From: Natronoarchaeum philippinense
GTDB lineage: Archaea > Halobacteriota > Halobacteria > Halobacteriales > Natronoarchaeaceae
Assembly: GCF_900215575.1 (NCBI RefSeq)
Contig: NZ_OBEJ01000003.1
Location: 310,001-374,000, forward strand
Direction: 5' to 3'
DNA: 64,000 nt
The notes under the pieces are model-generated. The model did not search any database and was not told where the DNA came from. It saw only the letters and a list, made by a program, of their open reading frames with translations. Both the position numbers and the translations under genes were made by a program. Positions 11,322 through 34,104 of this stretch are shown here, piece after piece; the stretch's first letter is position 1, and each line of letters opens with the position of its first letter.

Positions 11322-12395
11322 CTACTGCGGTTCCGGATCGAACAGGTCCGGCCGTTCCTCGCCCGTCGCGTTGACCGTCGCCATACAGCCCTTCCGGCCG
11401 GTCCGGCTGAGCGCGTGGTCGACCAACTTGACCGTTCCGGGCACCGGGAACTCCATCGTGGCGACGGCGGTACTGCCCGGCGCCACCGGCTTGGTCTGGA
11501 CGTTGTGATCGGGATCGGAGCTGAGCGCGCCTTCGGCCCACAGATCGGCCCAGACGTTGCCGATCGGGTGGAAGCTGCTGGTGAGGTTCGGGCCGCCGGT
11601 GACCATGAACACGCGGGCGGTCTGGTCCGTTTCGAGTTCGGCGGCGTGGCCGTAGCCGTCGGGCGTCATCGCGTAGGCTTCGCCGTTCATCACGACGTAG
11701 GTCGGCTCCTCGGCTGCCATCGCGTCCATGTCGAACCCGTGGTGGCCCTCGGCGCCGGTCTCTTTGTCGGTGTAGAGTTCGTGCTGGCCGATGTACAGTT
11801 CCTCGTCGACCTCTGGGAGGCCCTCCTTGGGCTCGACGAGGATCATGCCGAACATGCCCGCGCTGATGTGCATGTCCATGTTCGGGACGGCGCAGTGGTA
11901 GATGAACGCGCCGGGGTACTGGGCCTCGAACTTCAGGCTCGCCGTCTCGCCCGGGGAGGTCATCGTCGCTTCGGCGCCGCCGCCCGGCCCGTAACAGGCG
12001 TGGAAGTCGACGTTGTGGGGCAGGCTGTTTTCGGCGGGGTTCTCGAAGGTAAGGTTGATCGTGTCGCCCTGTCGGACCCGGATCATCGGTCCGGGCACCT
12101 GCCCGTTGTAGGTCATGTACTCGAACGTGACGCCGTCTTCGACCTCGGCGGTCACTTCTTCCGGACGCAGCGTCACGTCGACCTCCGCGGGCTCGTTCCG
12201 CTCGATCGGACCGGGAATGTCAGTCGGATCGGCGGCGACCCGGTCGGCGTCGAGCGTCGGCGCGGTCTGCTGTGGCTGGGTGTCGGTCTCGTTGGTCGGT
12301 TCTTCTGCCGCCGGTTCGGCCGTACAGCCCGCCAGTGCGAGGCCGGACATCGCGCCCGCCCCCTGCAGCACGCGGCGTCGGTTGGTGTCGAACAT
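11322..12395 (-). CDS. nirK: Copper-containing nitrite reductase
   Basis: Reduces nitrite to nitric oxide outside the membrane. The 357-aa protein starts with a Tat motif (NRRRVLQ) and lipobox LAGC, so it is probably a Tat-exported lipoprotein with lipidated Cys24. Two cupredoxin domains follow. The copper and catalytic residues are visible: PHNVDFH (type 1 His, catalytic Asp, type 2 His), YHC (type 2 His, type 1 Cys), MHISAGM (type 1 His and Met), SSFHPIG (catalytic His) and LVDHAL (type 2 His). It lies 198 bases downstream of the nitric oxide reductase in the same direction but has its own promoter. Confidence 0.95.
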   Translation of the reverse strand: MFDTNRRRVLQGAGAMSGLALAGCTAEPAAEEPTNETDTQPQQTAPTLDADRVAADPTDIPGPIERNEPAEVDVTLRPEEVTAEVEDGVTFEYMTYNGQVPGPMIRVRQGDTINLTFENPAENSLPHNVDFHACYGPGGGAEATMTSPGETASLKFEAQYPGAFIYHCAVPNMDMHISAGMFGMILVEPKEGLPEVDEELYIGQHELYTDKETGAEGHHGFDMDAMAAEEPTYVVMNGEAYAMTPDGYGHAAELETDQTARVFMVTGGPNLTSSFHPIGNVWADLWAEGALSSDPDHNVQTKPVAPGSTAVATMEFPVPGTVKLVDHALSRTGRKGCMATVNATGEERPDLFDPEPQ

Positions 12396-12593: not shown

Positions 12594-14882
12594 TCAGTCG
12601 TCGCTCTCTACCATCACGCGATCCGAGACGACCTGCTCGTCGGGGTCGGTACTACTGGACCGCACAGTCCGAAGCTTCTCGACGACATCCCAGCCGAAGA
12701 GCGCGGTGCCGACGATGATCAGCGCGTCGCCGGGCATGCGCGCCCAGAACAGCGCTTGCACGAGTGGGCGCTCGTAGAACGCCACGCTGCGGGCGACGGC
12801 GTAGCTCTCGGTGAAGGCGGCTTCCAGCTGGAGGAAGCCGACCGGTAGCACCGACACGAACACCATCAGCGCCAGCCCGACGTTCCAGCACCAGAACGCC
12901 GCCCGGAGCCGCCGAGCCGACCAGTTCGCGCTCTCGGTCGTGATCCGCAGGATGTAGGTTGCCATCCCCAGCGCGAGGAAGCCGAAGGCGCCGAACATCG
13001 CGGCGTGGGCGTGGCCCACCGTGAGGTAGGTGCCGTGCTCGTAGTAGTTGATCAGCGGCAGGTTGATGAAGAAGCCGAGCACGCCGGCGCCGACGAAGTT
13101 CCAGACGCCGCTTGCGACGATGAACGCGAAGGGCAACTTGTAGGGGAACGACTCCCCGGCGTCGGCCATCGCGCGGTACTCGCCGATGGCTTCGAACAGG
13201 ATGAACATGAGCGGGATCAGCTCCAGCGTGGAGAACACGCTGCCCAGCGGGATCCACACGTCGGGCTGGCCGATCCACCAGTAGTGATGCGAGACGCCGA
13301 TGACGCCGCTGCCCATCACCAGCAGCGCTTCGAGGCCGACGGCCTTCTCCGCCGAGCGTTTCGAGAGCAGGTTCATCGAGACCAGCGTCAGCCCGACGAT
13401 GGCGACGATGAAGAACTCGAAGGCGCCCTCGACCCACATGTGGACGACCCACCAGCGCCAGAACTCGGTGGTGACGATGTTGGTGTCGGGGGTGTAGAAC
13501 ATCCCGGCCATAAACAGCAGGCCGATCGACCCGCCCGCGTACAGGATCATGTGCGCGAGGCCAAAGCGGGGCTCACGATCCAGCAGCGGCTTGAACCCGC
13601 GGGCGACCAGTACCGCCCAGATGCCGAAGCCGGCGAGTAGCCCGACCTGCCAGACGCGGCCGACTTCGAGGTACTCCAGCCCCTCGTTGCCGAGTAGCCA
13701 CCACAGGTTCTCGGGGAGGTAGCCGTTGGCGCCCAACCAGATGCCGGTCATGCCGCCGACCGTGACGACGACGAGCGCGCCGAGCAGTCCGTAGACGTAC
13801 CGTTTCTGGTTCTTCGGCTCGTGGCCGGTCAGCAGCGGGCCCAAAAAGAGCCCGGCGCCGAGCCACAGCGTGGCGATCCAGAGCACCCCGAGGTCGATGT
13901 GCCACGTCTTGGCCATCGCAAAGGGAACCCACTGGAGAATGTTGAACCCGAGCAGCTCGCCCAGTCCGAAGAAGGCGTCGCGCTCGATGTAGAAGTGTGC
14001 GAGCAGCCCGCCGAGCAACACCTGCGCCAAGAACAGCAGCGCAGACACCGCGACGAAGCCGAGCGCCGCGATCTGGCTCGGCGTCAGGTCGATGTCGTCG
14101 GGGTGGGGTACGTCGATCCCCTCGGCACTCGGCTCGGCTAGGTCGATCGACCGGTAGAGGTAGACGCCAGCGCCGGCGCCTGCGACCAGCAACACCATGC
14201 TGATGACGCTCCACGTCAGCGTCGCGCCGGTCGGGACGTTGCCGGCGTCGGGGACGTAGGGCCACTCGTTGGTGTAGCTGTGGTCGGTGCCCGGCCGGTC
14301 GGCGTGGGCGATCCACGCGGTCCACATCGCAAAGTCGGCGAAGTCACGGGCTTCCGACTCGGATTCGATCATCCCCTCGGGGACGCCGCGCTCGGCCGAG
14401 CCCTCGTGATACCGCTGGACGTACTCCTCGCGGACCTGCTGGTGGGCGTACAGCTCGGCCGCGGAGTACTGGATCGTCCCGCTCGACCCGGTCGTCTGCA
14501 GTTCGTCCTTGACAGCGGCGTCGATCGACGCTTGCTCGCCGGCGTCGAGCGCCTCGTACTCGGCGCCGTGGCGCTCGTCGGCGTAGTACGCCTTCATGTA
14601 CTGGGTCTTGAGCTCCAGCGCATCTGCGGTGTAGTCCTCACCGTAGTACGCGCCGTTGCCCAGAATCGACCCGTGGTTCATCAGCCCGTTCGACTGGAAC
14701 GTCTTCTTGCCGTCCTGTACCTGTTCGGCGGTGACGACCGTCTGCCCGTCCGGCCCGACGACCGTCTCGGGGATCGGCGGCTCCTGCTGGTAGGCCAGCG
14801 CCGCGCCGGCCCCCATGACGATCAGATTGGCGACGAAGACGACGACGAGCGCCTTCGCCAAGGTCTGTCTCGTGACTTGCAT
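12594..14882 (-). CDS. norZ: Quinol-dependent nitric oxide reductase (qNor)
   Basis: Membrane enzyme that reduces NO to N2O with electrons from the quinol pool; 762 aa from ATG 14882. An N-terminal transmembrane helix and a periplasm-side domain of about 200 residues precede a 12-helix heme-copper-oxidase-like core, the fused layout of qNor that needs no separate cytochrome c subunit. Conserved ligand segments are HMWVEGAFEF, GVSHHYWWIG and TVGHAHAAMFGAFGF (heme b/b3 and FeB histidines, with the NOR-specific glutamates). Longer upstream in-frame starts give a low-complexity, Ser/Arg-rich extension and are rejected. It removes the NO made by NirK, encoded just downstream. Confidence 0.94.
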   Translation of the reverse strand: MQVTRQTLAKALVVVFVANLIVMGAGAALAYQQEPPIPETVVGPDGQTVVTAEQVQDGKKTFQSNGLMNHGSILGNGAYYGEDYTADALELKTQYMKAYYADERHGAEYEALDAGEQASIDAAVKDELQTTGSSGTIQYSAAELYAHQQVREEYVQRYHEGSAERGVPEGMIESESEARDFADFAMWTAWIAHADRPGTDHSYTNEWPYVPDAGNVPTGATLTWSVISMVLLVAGAGAGVYLYRSIDLAEPSAEGIDVPHPDDIDLTPSQIAALGFVAVSALLFLAQVLLGGLLAHFYIERDAFFGLGELLGFNILQWVPFAMAKTWHIDLGVLWIATLWLGAGLFLGPLLTGHEPKNQKRYVYGLLGALVVVTVGGMTGIWLGANGYLPENLWWLLGNEGLEYLEVGRVWQVGLLAGFGIWAVLVARGFKPLLDREPRFGLAHMILYAGGSIGLLFMAGMFYTPDTNIVTTEFWRWWVVHMWVEGAFEFFIVAIVGLTLVSMNLLSKRSAEKAVGLEALLVMGSGVIGVSHHYWWIGQPDVWIPLGSVFSTLELIPLMFILFEAIGEYRAMADAGESFPYKLPFAFIVASGVWNFVGAGVLGFFINLPLINYYEHGTYLTVGHAHAAMFGAFGFLALGMATYILRITTESANWSARRLRAAFWCWNVGLALMVFVSVLPVGFLQLEAAFTESYAVARSVAFYERPLVQALFWARMPGDALIIVGTALFGWDVVEKLRTVRSSSTDPDEQVVSDRVMVESDD

Positions 14883-15060
14883 CGCCCGACAGTTCGGCGT
14901 CCCGGTTTTTCTACGCCGCTCCGGTTCCCGTCGGGCGAAACCCCGCCCGAACGTGTTCGACCCGACCCGGTCGTTCCAGCCGGTCTGTGCCGTCTTTCGG
15001 ACGACGCCGCCGATCGAACCGGCCGATGTCTTTTTGTCGCCACCGGGGAAACGGTGGGCC

Positions 15061-15255
15061 ATGATGAACACACGCGGGGACATGGACGTCGACGGACTGC
15101 TCCGGATCGTGCTCGTGCTCGTGATCTTGCTCCTCGTCTTGGAGATCGTCGGCGAGGTGTTCGGCCTGCTGCTCGGCGTTCTTGGGTTCCTGCAGCCGCT
15201 GGTTCTGCTGGGACTTCTCGTGTTGCTCGTGCTGTGGCTCACCGACCGGCTGTAA
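15061..15255 (+). CDS. Small hydrophobic membrane protein
   Basis: A 64-aa protein with a short polar N terminus and two long leucine/valine-rich membrane segments (residues about 13-40 and 43-60). Start is ATG 15061 or the next codon, also ATG. It is divergent from the nitric oxide reductase and shares the 178-base promoter region with it, so common control is possible. Similar tiny two-helix proteins are widespread in haloarchaea. Function is unknown. Confidence 0.65.
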   Translation: MMNTRGDMDVDGLLRIVLVLVILLLVLEIVGEVFGLLLGVLGFLQPLVLLGLLVLLVLWLTDRL

Positions 15256-27404: not shown

Positions 27405-30400
27405 TTACTCTTCGTCGTCGTCTTCGGTGTCGGACATGCGGCGTGCCGCCTCGGCGGCGCCGGCCACGCCGGCCGCACCAGCCGCGACGCCGAAGCCGGG
27501 CAGCCCGTCGCTGCTGCCGTCGTCGCTGCTGGAACTGTTACCGCCGCTGTCACTGCTGGAGCCGCTGCCGTCGTCGCTGTTACCGTCGTCGTTGTTACCG
27601 CCGCTACCGCTGCCACCGCTGTAGTTGCCCACCGTGACGAAGGGCAGGGAGACGGTGCTGTCGGCGGAGTAGTTGCTCAGCACGGACGCCTGATCGGTGC
27701 CTTCGGGCGTCAGGATGTCCATCGCGGCCGGGTCGTTGGTACCCGTGCCGCCGCCGATGGCGTGCTGACCGTTGGACTCGGCGATTCCGCGGACGCCCTT
27801 GGTGCCGTAGCCGTCGTAGGGGACGGTGACCGGCTGGATCGCCATGCCGGTCTCCTCGTGGGACCAGCTGAGCGCGCCGCGGGGCACGTCGATGGAGACG
27901 GTCTTCCCGTCGGTTTGGGTGTTCACGTCCGTCGAGATAGCCTCGCCGGCTGCGTTCTCGACGGCCATGGTGCCCTCGCCGTGGACGACCACGCGGTAGT
28001 GGTACGGCTGGGCGAAGCCGAGATTCGTCCCGCCGCGGCCTTCGGTTCCGCTGGGGCCGCCAGCGTTGGGCGCAGCCACGTAGATCTGGAACATCTGGTG
28101 GCTGAAGCCGGGGCCGAAGCTCCACGGGTTCTGGATCTCCTCGGCCATCGTGTAGTTGAACCGGACGCGGCTACGAGAGGCCTCGACGCTGAAGGACTCG
28201 ATGTCCCACGCGTTCTCGTAGTAGGCGTCGGCGGTCGGCAGAGTGTACTGGCCCGATGCCATCCCGTCGCCGACCGGGTCGGAGAAGCTTGCGACCTCCT
28301 TGAACTCGGTCGTGACCAGCACGTACGAGAGCTGGGCGAGCTCGCCCTCGGAGTACGACAGCGCCTTGGGCTGGGTCGTGTTGTCGCTGGTCACCATGTC
28401 GATGATGTTCGGCGCGCTGTCGTTCTCGGCGCCGCCGAAGGCGTTCGCGGCGGCCTCCGACTCGACGGGCATGACGTTGCCGTCGGCCGAGCCGTCGTAG
28501 CCGAGCATCAGGGGCGCGAGCTGCATCGTCTCGGGCGAGACGTCGAGCTGGCGCTTGGGGATCTCGGTGATAATCTCGTACACCGCGTTGTTGATCTTGA
28601 CGTTGCCGGTGGCGACCTCGTTGCCGTCGGCGTCTTCGAGGCGCGCGCCGTTCTCGCCGTCGGTGACCACGCGGTAGTGGTACGGCTCGGAGAATTCGGC
28701 GTTGACGCCCGTCCGGGCCGCCGTCGACCCGCCGTCGCCGCTACTGTCGCGCACGTAGACTTGGAGGTGCTGGTTGGAGAACCCGTGCTCCAGATCGTCG
28801 GGGTTGGTGACCTCCGTGTCGACGCCGTAGATGAACTGGTAGTGGTCGTCGGTCTCGTGGACGCGGAACGTGTCGATGTCGAACGTCCCGTCGGCGTAGC
28901 CGTCGCCGGTGGGGTAGGTGTACGGCGTCGTGCCGTCCTCGGTGTCGGGCTGGCCCGGACCGATGTCGTCGCCGGTCTGGTCGCCCGTCTCGAAGACGGT
29001 CTCGCCGACCGGCAGCAGCGTCGGCGTCTCGTAGACGGCGATCGTGTCGACCTCGGTGACGCTCGCTGCCGCGCCGCTCGGGATCGAGAGATCCTCGCCG
29101 CTGATCACGTCGGTCGTGCTCACGTCCGGTCGGAGGTTGACCTGTGCCGGCTCCTCCTCGAAGTTGACGACGACGACGGCCTTCTCGGGGCCGCTGACAT
29201 CGTCGAGGTGGCTCGCGTCGCGTCCGAACACGAGAAGGTTGGGTTCGGCCTTGAACGCAGTCGTGAACCACTCGGCGGACATATCTGCGTCCGGTTTGAG
29301 CACGTCCAGATCGTGGTACGCGCTGATCAGGTCCTTGTAGAACTGGAGGTGGTCCTCGTCGTACTCGTCCCAGTTCATGAACGCCCGCTTTTTGCCGCCG
29401 GGGAAGACGTCCCCGTCCCGCGGGTCGTCCTCGCCCATGTGGCGGCCCTCGCCGTACTGGCTGATAGCGCGTTCCTGACCGTAGTAGACGAAGGGGACGC
29501 CGGGCAGCGCGACGCCGGCCGCCCAGCAGGCGCGCTGGGCCTTCTTGGGGTTGTCGCGGGTGCCGCCCTCCATGATCTGGTTGAGAAGGCGTTCCTCGTC
29601 GTGGTTCTCGGTCGTGTTGAGGACCAAGCTGTGCTCCGGGAATCCCTCCGTCTTCCGCTTCTGGACGGCGTTCATCAGTTCGACGGCGGGAGCGTTGTCG
29701 CGGCCGACGCCGCGGGCGGTGTTCATGAAGTCCGCCGTGTCGAAGTGCATGTCGAACTCGTTCTCGCTGAACTGAGGATCGTTCGGGATCGTCTCGTTCA
29801 GCATCATGAACTCGCTGTTGTTCTCCCGGACGACTTCGCGCACCTCCTTCCACATGCTGTGGGGAACGCCCCACGCGATGTCGCAGCGGAAGCCGTCGAC
29901 GCCGATCTGGCCAGACCAGAAGTCGGCGACGGCGAGCATGTGCTCGCGCAACGCGATGTTGTCGAAGTTCCAGTTGGGCATCACGCGCAGTCCCCAGAAG
30001 CCGGTGTTGGCCGGCTGGGGGTCGACAACGTCGCCCGAAGGCCCGGTGATCGGGGCGTCCATCCGGTCGAACCAGTCGAAGCGCTTGGAGTCTTTCTTCC
30101 AGCTCTTGAGCGGCGGGTACTCCCATCCTTCGGGCGCTGCCTCGCCGGTGGTGCCGGTGTGCGTGCTCGTGAAGAACTCGTGGTTGCGACCGCCGTGGTT
30201 GATCACGAGGTCGAACACGACGTGGATGTCGCGCTCGTGACAGGCGTCGACGAACGCCTGATAGTCTTCCATCGTCCCAAGGTCGGGCGCGATGGCCATG
30301 TAGTCGTTGGCGTCGTAGCCGTGGGGGCCGCCGCCCGCCATCTCCTTGCGGGAACTCTCGGAGGGGACGACCGGCGTCAGCCAGACCGCGTCGATACCTA

Positions 30401-31355
30401 GTTCTTCTAGATAATCGACATTGTCGGCGAGGTACTGCATGTCGGTCGCGCCGCGCTCGCCGGCAAACGACCGCGTGAAGATTTCGTACATCACGCCGTC
30501 TTTCATCCACTCTGGCGGTCGGTTCGGGTGGTGGGTCTCGCCGTCGGCATCGAGCACGACGCTGTCGGTGATGCCGTGAACCTCGCCGTCGAACGGCGCG
30601 GCGTGTACGCGTGCCGCTTCGCCGTCGATCGCGCTCTGGGGGACGCGCGCCGTGGTCCCCTCGACCGTGATGTCCTCAGTCGCCAGCGCGTCGCGGTCGT
30701 CGGCGAGGAACTCGACGACGAGGTCGTCGCGCGACGCGTTGCTGTTGGGCGCGAGATTGGCATTGGACTCGATGACGAACTCGCCGGCGCCGCCGTCGAA
30801 CGATGCATCGAGCGAGATGCGCGGCGGGCCGCCGGCGTCACCGGGAGCCGCCGGGAACGCGTGGATCGTCTGCTGGTGGGTTCCGTCGGGCGCCTCCAGC
30901 TCTAGAACGTACGTACCAGCGGTGTCGGCGGTGAACTCGGCGGCGTTCTCCTTGCCGTTCGACCATCGAGGCTTTTCGGAGTCGTGTGTCTGTTCGAACT
31001 TCAGCTCGGCGTTCGAGCCATCGGGCTGCTCGGCGATCGACCACGTGAAGTCGTCGGCCGAGTAGTTCTCGGGATCGGCCTGGAAGTCCGGGACGCGAGG
31101 TGCGAGGTTGTCGCGCGCGTCGTAGAAGCCGTTCCCGACGTGGATCGGGTTGCTCAACTGCTCGCCGACAGCCACGAACCGGGGGTGGCCGGGGTGGTGG
31201 GAATTCGCTCCGCTCGCGGATGTTTGCTGCTGAAGCGCCGGCTGCGTCTCCGCGCTACCATAACCGGATGACAGCGAGAGTGCGCCGAGCCCGGCGATGC
31301 CGCCGAGCACGCTTCGTCGATCCATTTCGGGGGTGAGATTGTCGTTGTTGCTCAT
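27405..31355 (-). CDS. Secreted, surface-anchored GH13 alpha-amylase family protein with two glucodextranase-type C-terminal domains
   Basis: A 1316-aa exported glycosidase. The Tat motif DRRSVLGG (residues 12-19) is followed by Ig-like N-terminal domains (about 50-270) and a GH13 barrel (about 280-800) with the four conserved regions: DLVINH (382-387), GFRCDIAW with nucleophile D492, MLNETI with acid/base E521, and TENHD with D586. Two homologous C-terminal domains (about 845-1010 and 1060-1230), sharing PTxDxYxxxxxDIxxF and FSxQxxQxYV patterns, resemble the glucodextranase C-terminal module. A Ser/Gly/Asp spacer and the PGFG-helix-RR signal (PGF-CTERM) end the protein. It probably degrades starch-like glucans at the cell surface; exact specificity is unknown. 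Confidence 0.9.
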   Translation of the reverse strand: MSNNDNLTPEMDRRSVLGGIAGLGALSLSSGYGSAETQPALQQQTSASGANSHHPGHPRFVAVGEQLSNPIHVGNGFYDARDNLAPRVPDFQADPENYSADDFTWSIAEQPDGSNAELKFEQTHDSEKPRWSNGKENAAEFTADTAGTYVLELEAPDGTHQQTIHAFPAAPGDAGGPPRISLDASFDGGAGEFVIESNANLAPNSNASRDDLVVEFLADDRDALATEDITVEGTTARVPQSAIDGEAARVHAAPFDGEVHGITDSVVLDADGETHHPNRPPEWMKDGVMYEIFTRSFAGERGATDMQYLADNVDYLEELGIDAVWLTPVVPSESSRKEMAGGGPHGYDANDYMAIAPDLGTMEDYQAFVDACHERDIHVVFDLVINHGGRNHEFFTSTHTGTTGEAAPEGWEYPPLKSWKKDSKRFDWFDRMDAPITGPSGDVVDPQPANTGFWGLRVMPNWNFDNIALREHMLAVADFWSGQIGVDGFRCDIAWGVPHSMWKEVREVVRENNSEFMMLNETIPNDPQFSENEFDMHFDTADFMNTARGVGRDNAPAVELMNAVQKRKTEGFPEHSLVLNTTENHDEERLLNQIMEGGTRDNPKKAQRACWAAGVALPGVPFVYYGQERAISQYGEGRHMGEDDPRDGDVFPGGKKRAFMNWDEYDEDHLQFYKDLISAYHDLDVLKPDADMSAEWFTTAFKAEPNLLVFGRDASHLDDVSGPEKAVVVVNFEEEPAQVNLRPDVSTTDVISGEDLSIPSGAAASVTEVDTIAVYETPTLLPVGETVFETGDQTGDDIGPGQPDTEDGTTPYTYPTGDGYADGTFDIDTFRVHETDDHYQFIYGVDTEVTNPDDLEHGFSNQHLQVYVRDSSGDGGSTAARTGVNAEFSEPYHYRVVTDGENGARLEDADGNEVATGNVKINNAVYEIITEIPKRQLDVSPETMQLAPLMLGYDGSADGNVMPVESEAAANAFGGAENDSAPNIIDMVTSDNTTQPKALSYSEGELAQLSYVLVTTEFKEVASFSDPVGDGMASGQYTLPTADAYYENAWDIESFSVEASRSRVRFNYTMAEEIQNPWSFGPGFSHQMFQIYVAAPNAGGPSGTEGRGGTNLGFAQPYHYRVVVHGEGTMAVENAAGEAISTDVNTQTDGKTVSIDVPRGALSWSHEETGMAIQPVTVPYDGYGTKGVRGIAESNGQHAIGGGTGTNDPAAMDILTPEGTDQASVLSNYSADSTVSLPFVTVGNYSGGSGSGGNNDDGNSDDGSGSSSDSGGNSSSSDDGSSDGLPGFGVAAGAAGVAGAAEAARRMSDTEDDDEE

Positions 31356-31731: not shown

Positions 31732-32262
31732 TCAGGCGAACTCGACGCGAAGCGTACAGTGATCGTCGCCGTCTTTCGTGCAGGTGCGCTCGTTGATCGT
31801 CACCTCGTCGTCGTACTTCTCGGCTACGCCGAGGACGATCCCTTCGGCCACCGCACAGAGTTCACGCTCGGACCGGTAGGTCACGACGATGTCGCCGCCG
31901 TCGGCTTCGGTCGCCACGTCGGGGAGCGTCGACTCCTCGTCTTGGGCCGCAACCCGCTCGTAGACCACCTCGAGTGCCAACAGCAACTCTTGGGTGCCCC
32001 AGTCGTCCCGGACGTGTGCTTTGAACGTATTCAGCAGTTCCGGTGCGAGGGTCCGTCCGAACGCCGTCTGATGGGCAGCCTCGTTCTCGTCGGTCGACGC
32101 CGCCAGCGCAGCAAAGACGGCATCGACTTCCTCGTCGGGATACCGACTCACTGGCAGGTACAGTTTCGGATCTAGCCCAGCTCGATCGGCAACGTCGTCC
32201 CACTCGGCGGCGTCGATCCCCTCGACGTACTCCTTGAGCGTCTTGTGAACGATTCCGTGCAT
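31732..32262 (-). CDS. H-NOX-like (heme NO-binding family) protein lacking the proximal histidine
   Basis: A 176-aa stand-alone protein matching the heme-nitric-oxide/oxygen-binding fold over its whole length: start MHGIVHKTLKEYV, SRYPDEEVDAVF, AFGRTLAPELL, the Y-x-S-x-R heme-propionate motif as Y129-R-S131-E-R133, and the C-terminal GDDHCTLRVEF. The proximal histidine that ligates heme in known members should fall near residue 101; here the aligned segment reads ALEVVYERV, with Tyr101 in its place. So heme may be bound through tyrosine or not at all. No kinase or cyclase domain is fused or adjacent. A role in NO sensing alongside nirK/norZ is speculative. Confidence 0.78.
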   Translation of the reverse strand: MHGIVHKTLKEYVEGIDAAEWDDVADRAGLDPKLYLPVSRYPDEEVDAVFAALAASTDENEAAHQTAFGRTLAPELLNTFKAHVRDDWGTQELLLALEVVYERVAAQDEESTLPDVATEADGGDIVVTYRSERELCAVAEGIVLGVAEKYDDEVTINERTCTKDGDDHCTLRVEFA

Positions 32263-32356
32263 GCTTTACCGTCTCTCGTTCGATCGCGCGTCGCTGCTCA
32301 TACGTTACCTTCACGCAACCATCGCGTAAGTATTCCGGCGTTCCGGCGAGCCTGCT

Positions 32357-33211
32357 TCAGTTCTCCACGGCTCGCGCAATCGCCGGCGCAGCGCTGACCT
32401 CGCTGACCGGTCGTTCGATTGTGTCGGTGCCGTAGATCGCGTCCACGCCAGCCCGCGAGAGCTTCGTGACCGCGTTGCTGGCCAGCAGCGGATGGACGCA
32501 GGTGACGTAGACGCCGTCGGCACCCCGTTCGTCGAGCACGCCGACGGCCTCGCTCATCGTCGATCCTGTGGCGATGATGTCGTCGACGACGACCACGTCT
32601 CGCCCCTCTACATCGGCGTCGCTCGGTGTGATTTCGACCTCGCTGCCCGAGCGGCGCGTCTTCTCGAAGTAGTCGACCTCGCCCTCGCCCGCGGCCGAGC
32701 GGACGGTTTCGGCCAGTTCGATCGCGCCCGCGTCGGGCGAGAGAAAGAGCGGATCGGTCAAGTCATCCGGAAGCGGTTCAGCAAGCCGGTCGGCCGCGGT
32801 GACGGCGGTCGCCGAGGGCTCGAAAAAGTCACAGACCGCCCCCTCGTGGGGATCGACGGTGACGACCCGATCGGCGCCGGTACTGATCGCTCGTGCGACG
32901 GCCCGTGCCGAAACCGGCTCACCGTCCTCGAAGGCTCGGTCCTGTCGAGCGTAGCCCATGTACGGCAGCACCGTCACGACCTCCTCGAAGCCGGCCTCGC
33001 GGGCGGCGTCTTGCAACTGGAGCAGTTCCAGGTGGGCGTCGCCGGTCGGCGTCGACGCGACCACGACGGCACGATCCCCCTCGACCGCCCCGATCTGGGC
33101 CATCACTTCCCCGTCCGGAAACCGGTCGAACTCCACGGGTGCGAGCGGTTCGTCCAGTTCACGGGCCACCTCGGCGGCGAGCGACTGCGAGTGGCGTCCG
33201 CTGAGTATCAT
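32357..33211 (-). CDS. prs: Ribose-phosphate pyrophosphokinase
   Basis: Makes PRPP from ribose 5-phosphate and ATP (284 aa), feeding nucleotide, histidine and, in archaea, other pathways. ATG 33211 gives the normal N terminus ILSGRHSQSLA; the catalytic flexible loop region (GYARQDRAF), the metal-binding TVDPHEGAV and the PRPP loop VVVVDDIIATGSTM are intact. Longer upstream frames are Arg-rich and rejected. It is in the same direction as the beta-propeller gene upstream and is functionally close to rpiA at 36034. Confidence 0.94.
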   Translation of the reverse strand: MILSGRHSQSLAAEVARELDEPLAPVEFDRFPDGEVMAQIGAVEGDRAVVVASTPTGDAHLELLQLQDAAREAGFEEVVTVLPYMGYARQDRAFEDGEPVSARAVARAISTGADRVVTVDPHEGAVCDFFEPSATAVTAADRLAEPLPDDLTDPLFLSPDAGAIELAETVRSAAGEGEVDYFEKTRRSGSEVEITPSDADVEGRDVVVVDDIIATGSTMSEAVGVLDERGADGVYVTCVHPLLASNAVTKLSRAGVDAIYGTDTIERPVSEVSAAPAIARAVEN

Positions 33212-33264
33212 ACTCGTGGCCACTCCGGCGAGCGATAAACCCGTTTTCGTTCGGACCGACGCCG

Positions 33265-34104
33265 TCATTCGGCGACCGCACAGCCGACGACCGGACGCAG
33301 GCCGAGGTGCTGGTGTCGCCAGCCGTCGCCGGCGTCCACGAGGAAGTGCCCATCGGCGGTCACGACGTACGTCGCCGGTCCGTAGCTCACTCCGACCGGT
33401 TCGCCCTCGATCGGTAACGAAATCCGTGACCACGCGTCCGCGCCCGGTGCCGATGCCGCTTCGGCGTCTCGCGTACGCGCGTAGAAATCACTGGCGACGA
33501 CAGCGTGCGCTCGTCCGTCGCCTCCGGCCGCGACCATCGTCGCCTCGCCCTCGACAACTTGCTTCCAGCCAGCTTCATACCGGTAGACACCGTCGTCGGT
33601 CGCAGCGAGTTCGACATCGCCGGATGCCACGTCGGCCGCGGCGCCGAGGCCGGTTCGTTCGAGGGTGGTGGCTGCCCCGTCACCGTCTTCCTCGACGAGT
33701 CGGTAGACGCCGTCGCTCGCCGCGACGAGGTCGCCGTCGATCGCCTGCACCGACCCCCCGACCGTTCCCGCGTCGACCCATTCACCGGGATCGGTCGCCG
33801 TCGCTACCCTTCCTTCCCCGTCCCCCGCGACGACGGCGCCCCGTCGAAAGCCGACGGCGGTCGCCGAGCCGAATCCCAGTTCGAGCGGCTCCTCGCCCAA
33901 CAAGACGATGTCTTCGTCGGTGGCGACGGCGATCTGGCCGGGCTGTCCCGCAATGTCGACTGTCTCGGTCCGATACTCGACGCCGAACTCGCCGACCAGA
34001 TCCGCCGATACCGACACCGCGGCGACGCCGACGCCCGACCCGACGAACACGCGCGTCCGACCGGACTTTTCGGCGAAGATACGCTTTTCCTCGATCGTCG
34101 TCAT
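33265..34104 (-). CDS. Haloarchaeal beta-propeller-like protein (HVO_0234 type)
   Basis: A 279-aa protein from ATG 34104 with repeated short units of the type xxGVYRYExGW, DGVYRLVEEDG and GHFLVDAGDGWR, spaced 40-50 residues apart, which suggests a beta-propeller of about six blades. No signal peptide is present, so it should be cytoplasmic. Haloferax carries a similar protein (HVO_0234) near prs, as far as I recall. Function is unknown. It sits 53 bases before prs and may share its transcript. Confidence 0.7.
   Translation of the reverse strand: MTTIEEKRIFAEKSGRTRVFVGSGVGVAAVSVSADLVGEFGVEYRTETVDIAGQPGQIAVATDEDIVLLGEEPLELGFGSATAVGFRRGAVVAGDGEGRVATATDPGEWVDAGTVGGSVQAIDGDLVAASDGVYRLVEEDGDGAATTLERTGLGAAADVASGDVELAATDDGVYRYEAGWKQVVEGEATMVAAGGDGRAHAVVASDFYARTRDAEAASAPGADAWSRISLPIEGEPVGVSYGPATYVVTADGHFLVDAGDGWRHQHLGLRPVVGCAVAE

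Follow-up and report, generated by a model that had tools for sequence, protein, structure and literature searches.

H-NOX proteins are defined by an axial histidine, and the locus described here raises the question of what use is made of the H-NOX fold once that histidine is gone. The locus lies in a 64,000-nucleotide stretch of Natronoarchaeum philippinense DNA (contig NZ_OBEJ01000003.1, positions 310,001 to 374,000), which as a whole is called the window below. For the protein in question an earlier note had offered three readings: heme bound by tyrosine, an altered redox or gas behaviour, or a heme-free use of the fold. The gene is as follows.

31732..32262, minus strand: H-NOX-fold (HNOB) protein without the proximal His, 176 amino acids (assigned by Pfam, PDB, AlphaFold2 and Foldseek)

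The open reading frame is intact, begins with ATG and encodes 176 amino acids, of which residues 2-157 match positions 1-162 of the 163 in the Pfam HNOB profile (PF07700; E = 2.2e-20, 73.6 bits against a curated cut-off of 25.5), so that the end-to-end homology previously claimed is confirmed over 162/163 profile positions. The N-terminus, MHGI, falls at profile position 1 and is thus the usual Met1-x-Gly3 start without an extension. When searched against the PDB with phmmer the top match was the Shewanella oneidensis (So) H-NOX (2kii; E = 8.5e-11), whilst an AlphaFold2 model built from an alignment of 52 relatives (mean pLDDT 88.5, pTM 0.86) retrieved in Foldseek only H-NOX structures among the first 45 PDB matches, including the H-NOX domain of the soluble guanylate cyclase (sGC) beta subunit, the closest solved match being 4u9b, again So H-NOX (TM 0.87, rmsd 2.6). 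These E-values, together with the persistence of the substitution across a clade (see below), exclude a chance likeness, and a pseudogene was rejected given the intact reading frame and the conservation of the clade in more than 65 genomes. One non-His copy elsewhere does appear to be decaying, with its HNOB match spread over more than one reading frame (L112; G111:C1:1671694-1672108).

The residue at the heme-ligand column is encoded here.

31960..31962, minus strand: Tyr101 codon (gta on the plus strand, TAC on the minus strand), aligned by phmmer and MAFFT with the proximal His that ligates heme (So H103)

Tyr101 stood opposite So His103 in three alignments, one from phmmer and two from MAFFT (the query with 117 others, 118 sequences in all, and then with 143 others, 144 sequences in all). 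The protein therefore has Tyr101 instead of the axial proximal His of an H-NOX heme gas sensor, as the earlier note had read from the sequence. That note had named His64 and His83 as the residues that might prove to be the ligand after all; the structural comparison it proposed returned the H-NOX fold (Foldseek with the AlphaFold2 model), and neither residue falls at the ligand column in the phmmer or MAFFT alignments, so both were rejected. His83 aligns with So V84 and is also found in 26/39 His-type haloarchaeal H-NOX proteins.

In order to place the substitution we searched 394 Halobacteriales genomes with the PF07700 profile and found HNOB proteins in 91 of them. By their residue at the ligand column these proteins fall into those with His (the His type) and those without it (the non-His type), the latter forming one side of a single branch in a maximum-likelihood tree (SH-aLRT 97); a second tree, with columns 6, 80 and 101 masked and named genomes added, gave the same split (SH-aLRT 93) with 65 non-redundant non-His proteins, both trees being quick searches with SH-aLRT as the only support measure. 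The non-His proteins form one clade, with a single loss of the His. Named members include Halostella pelagica, Haloarchaeobius iranensis, Halorubellus salinus and many Natrinema, Natronorubrum and Halopiger species, and outside the Halobacteriales the full-length matches inspected in a sample of the wider phylum (L178-L181) carry the normal His. Among the His-type proteins, tandem H-NOX gene pairs from two different tree branches were seen at L013, L015, L018, L028 and L039 (families f17 and f4).

Across the haloarchaeal homologues of this clade the substitution is conserved only as a loss of His; Tyr itself occurs in 33/65 of the non-redundant members, the other 32 having Ala, Thr, Val, Ser, Ile, Arg or Phe, and at least 17 changes at position 101 can be counted on the tree within the clade. 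Tyr is the commonest residue at this position and probably an early state, and L082, which branches off most basally, carries Phe both here and at position 6. Because of these many changes, and because about half of the members are non-Tyr, a Tyr-heme mode conserved across the family appears unlikely from the sequences, although it may hold in the all-Tyr branches near the window. Heme proteins of other kinds are known to use Tyr as a ligand, and its exact placement at the ligand column and its standing as the commonest and probably early residue would fit, for the Tyr members at any rate, an Fe(III)-tyrosinate axial ligand and a heme protein that is tuned for redox and does not respond to gas. 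The repeated replacement of Tyr, with no extra decay of the heme motif in its wake, makes this reading very unlikely in our judgement, and of the three readings offered at the outset it is the heme-free fold that seems best supported whilst Tyr-bound heme loses ground.

Whether the pocket itself persists was assessed by counting conservation in the 65 non-redundant non-His clade proteins and in 39 His-type haloarchaeal H-NOX proteins, using the following positions.

31864..31878, minus strand: YxSxR heme-propionate/carboxylate motif, Y129-R-S131-E-R133 (clade conservation given below)
31921..31923, minus strand: Pro114, the heme-contacting proximal Pro (So P116), in 61/65 of the clade and 39/39 of the His type
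32056..32058, minus strand: Gly69, by alignment the first H-NOX hinge Gly, in 65/65 of the clade and 39/39 of the His type
31828..31830, minus strand: Gly145, by alignment the second H-NOX hinge Gly, in 64/65 of the clade and 39/39 of the His type
32245..32247, minus strand: His6 on helix A, specific to the non-His clade (62/65, against 0/39 of the His type, which have Leu, Met or Phe)
32023..32025, minus strand: Phe80, fixed in the clade (65/65), where all His-type haloarchaeal H-NOX proteins have Tyr (39/39)

The Y-x-S-x-R motif noted earlier is indeed kept, with Tyr or Phe at 129 in 65/65 clade proteins, Ser or Thr at 131 in 64/65 and Arg at 133 in 59/65. Natrinema and its allies (L056, L064, L071, L099 and relatives) are derived non-His members in which Thr replaces Ser in the motif and two residues are inserted between the YxTxR Arg and the first cysteine of the triad described below. 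Retention of the motif, of Pro114 and of the Gly hinges did not differ significantly between Tyr and non-Tyr members. A Tyr-heme site predicts faster loss of the motif where Tyr is absent, but the trend for Arg133 was reversed and non-significant (31/32 non-Tyr against 28/33 Tyr members keep it; p = 0.20), which again counts against a Tyr ligand. Against a heme-free use of the fold, YxS/TxR, Pro114 and a hydrophobic pocket are kept even without the Tyr, as though the pocket were still occupied, perhaps by heme or by a carboxylate ligand of another kind, and a missing His is by itself no proof of missing heme.

Retention of the motif thus keeps two alternatives alive, another anionic ligand, to which we return, and heme bound through some other residue. 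Besides position 101 the clade is defined by two exchanges, His6 and Phe80, and heme could still be bound through another clade-specific residue, above all His6, or through water or an exogenous ligand. The near-fixation of His6 in the clade and its absence from the His type speak for this, as do the retained propionate motif and Pro114 and the fact that position 5, adjoining His6, is a known H-NOX heme contact (Ile5 in Tt H-NOX). The basal L082, however, lacks both His101 and His6, and on an ideal helix, where positions 5 and 9 face the heme, position 6 would point away from them; overall we hold such an alternative ligand to be unlikely. Slightly more doubtful is a ligand swap in which His6 took over the coordination of heme or of another metal after the proximal His was lost, the pocket being read from its other face; the exchanges at 6 (Leu/Met/Phe to His), 80 (Tyr to Phe) and 101 (His to Tyr) would then be one rebuilt site.

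A second candidate site lies in the C-terminal part of the protein.

31855..31857, minus strand: Cys136, aligned with So C139 of the zinc/thiol triad (So and Vibrio cholerae [Vc] zinc site, PMC7108781)
31780..31782, minus strand: Cys161, aligned with So C164 of the same triad
31756..31758, minus strand: Cys169, aligned with So C172 of the same triad; spacing 25 + 8, as in So and Vc

The triad residues fall at 139/164/172 in So and at 149/174/182 in Vc, both with the 25 + 8 spacing, and in the heme-free V. cholerae H-NOX this zinc/Cys site gives a reversible response to oxidation in vitro (PMC7108781). In Caulobacter it is likewise Cys oxidation, and not NO, through which H-NOX governs its kinase in vitro (PMC12329717), and in the archaeal redox regulator MsvR a V4R-domain triad, C206/C232/C240 (spacing 26 + 8), has been implicated in a redox switch (PMC3729527). 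Within the clade C136, C161 and C169 are present in 33/33, 32/33 and 33/33 of the Tyr members and in 24/32, 24/32 and 27/32 of the non-Tyr members; since part of the latter lack at least one triad Cys, a thiol switch cannot be common to all clade members. Zinc binding is also unsure because the fourth ligand position (So 161) is occupied by Glu158 and not by His or Gln; Glu at this position is the rule in haloarchaeal His-type proteins as well.

The proximal His was present in all of 598 H-NOX homologues surveyed previously (PMC7108781), and because it is so universal, its absence from this clade signals another mode. The reading that we favour is of a natural prokaryotic pseudo-H-NOX, which retains the full fold, lost its axial His once, is most likely heme-free as far as that site is concerned and is putatively a thiol/zinc regulator, to which we would give roughly even odds (a probability of about 0.5). 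It is favoured because the triad is kept in the Tyr members with the spacing seen in Vc and So, and because the Gly hinges are intact. On this reading heme would most likely no longer be bound through the vacated site, and Tyr101 would simply fill the emptied proximal pocket. The protein would act as a cytosolic single-domain regulator for which oxidation or metal occupancy of C136/C161/C169, rather than gas binding to heme, may be the signal, and this signal could shift one subdomain against the other at the Gly hinge, altering how the protein binds a partner. Such a regulatory role, independent of heme and responding to redox state or metal, is proposed here by analogy with the Vc and Caulobacter H-NOX proteins and with MsvR.

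The cysteines and Tyr101 would be secondary if, instead, the fold has been kept for a non-heme carboxylate, phosphate or hydrophobic ligand held by YxS/TxR, the protein being a ligand sensor or binding protein. We regard this as possible, if rather unlikely: YxS/TxR and Pro114 are kept in Tyr and non-Tyr members alike, and the C-terminal part of the protein resembles the V4R profile (29.4 bits, E = 8.5e-7), a family described as serving purposes as different as hydrocarbon binding and bacteriochlorophyll synthesis (PMC3729527), but the match is under the cut-off of 31 and common to His-type proteins, and the YxS/TxR motif may be structural. Membership of the V4R family was rejected for this score under the cut-off; the MsvR profile gave 21.6 bits against a cut-off of 220.

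The surroundings of the gene were then compared across loci. Two features lie directly upstream.

32357..33268, minus strand: prs, PRPP synthetase, directly upstream of the HNOB gene (Pfam Pribosyltran_N, E = 2.8e-25)
32320..32348, minus strand: promoter-like stretch CGCCGGAACGCCGGAATACTTACGCGATG ahead of the start codon, shared unchanged with the congener G008 (L050) and putatively directing transcription

The prs gene is on the same strand as the HNOB gene in 68/70 clade loci and was measured upstream in 66, in 65 of those at no more than 540 bp; the gap has a median of 120 bp over 68 measured distances (negative values at L062 and L090 reflect the picking of start codons) and is 94 bp in the window and 1,011 bp at L050. 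No prs was found in the 10-kb stretch at L083 and L107, which belong to one genus of the window's family, and none was found beside the His-type HNOB at the nine loci checked (0/9). Other recurrent neighbours at clade loci are an HVO_0234-like propeller, a phosphoglucomutase-type gene and IleRS. These genes also commonly accompany prs in the ten genomes without HNOB that were compared, and in several of those IleRS comes straight after prs; because the prs surroundings are shared with genomes that lack HNOB, the site is old and the adjacency perhaps inherited rather than functional, and we do not claim a functional prs operon. TTTTAAG/TTTATA occurs at a similar place upstream of HNOB in many relatives, and such TATA-like boxes before the start codon suggest that the gene has its own promoter. 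Directly downstream in the window (27405-31355, minus strand) is a 1316-amino-acid alpha-amylase with a glucodextranase C-terminal module, the place of which is taken in most relatives by another gene on the opposite strand.

The earlier description of a stand-alone sensor is accurate as to its standing alone, but the conserved neighbour is prs and not a sensor partner: no MCP, kinase or cyclase is fused to the protein or lies beside it, its neighbours in the window being prs and the alpha-amylase. An arrangement beside an MCP is usual for H-NOX, and exactly this is found in the same genome for another HNOB gene, which encodes the normal proximal His (G000:C3:453674-454147, locus L001; about 4905-5480 of L116, minus strand) and immediately precedes the gene of an MCP signalling protein (PF00015, E = 5e-32). 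With a canonical His-type H-NOX and an MCP in the same genome, an NO/O2 role is open to the paralogue. An ORF resembling an IS200/IS605-type TnpB, identified by eye, lies beside this paralogue (L116:6204-7646).

A link to denitrification had been drawn from two genes that are indeed present in the window, at 16.5-20 kb from the HNOB gene.

11322-12395: Cu-NirK (TIGR02376, 432 bits)
12594-15242: qNor-type NorB (the norZ of the earlier note)

Order-wide, nirK over the cut-off was found in 48/72 genomes with the clade, 24/72 having none, against 149/322 without it (p = 0.0025), these counts having been transcribed from search tables with over-cut-off status read from E-values so that they may be off by a few. 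Within family f7, where genomes with any multicopper match were counted, no association was seen (40/53 against 16/24; p = 0.42), and since the order-wide association is gone there, shared taxonomy is its best explanation. The nirK spacing of about 20 kb recurs only in the window's genus (congener G008), whereas in the other nirK-bearing members of the family the gene lies some 600 kb off or on a separate contig. The proposed link was thus not borne out. That the protein is an ordinary denitrification-linked NO sensor whose ligand has merely changed has the proximity of nirK and norZ (16-20 kb) in its favour, but given the clade genomes lacking nirK, the absence of an association within f7 and a linkage not conserved outside the genus, we consider it extremely unlikely.

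The protein can be set beside four known systems. With the zinc-cysteine H-NOX proteins of So, Vc and Caulobacter it shares the fold (TM 0.87), YxSxR, the Pro, the Gly hinge and three identically spaced cysteines; it differs in lacking the proximal His, in having Glu as fourth zinc ligand where theirs is His or Gln, and in having no adjoining histidine kinase, diguanylate cyclase or MCP. Like the pseudo-H-NOX of human sGC alpha, which carries no heme, it has an H-NOX fold without the heme-ligating His, but it is free of the N-terminal extension that blocks the pocket in sGC alpha (PMC8196705) and stands alone rather than in a large heterodimer. The MsvR/V4R proteins of methanogens are likewise archaeal with a C-terminal Cys triad (spacing 26 and 8, against 25 and 8 here); MsvR lacks the H-NOX N-terminal half, whereas our protein has no HTH and scores below the V4R cut-off. 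The canonical haloarchaeal His-type H-NOX proteins, such as the paralogue, are of the same family and have the Cys triad, the Glu158-equivalent and YxSxR; the paralogue differs in its proximal His, Tyr80, a hydrophobic residue 6 and the MCP neighbour.

Heme-free H-NOX domains are already known in sGC alpha and in apo Vc H-NOX. In the literature searched, mostly non-subscription, we found no description of a haloarchaeal HNOB without the His, and a free-standing prokaryotic clade lacking the ligand His is apparently undescribed there, in contrast to the survey of 598 homologues. For haloarchaea it follows that a 'heme NO-binding' annotation is unsafe as proof of an NO or O2 sensor. For the family, a large, vertically inherited His-less clade is a natural experiment on the H-NOX fold without its heme ligand, and makes directly testable the proposal that H-NOX proteins can signal through the zinc/cysteine site on its own, in a mode that needs no heme.
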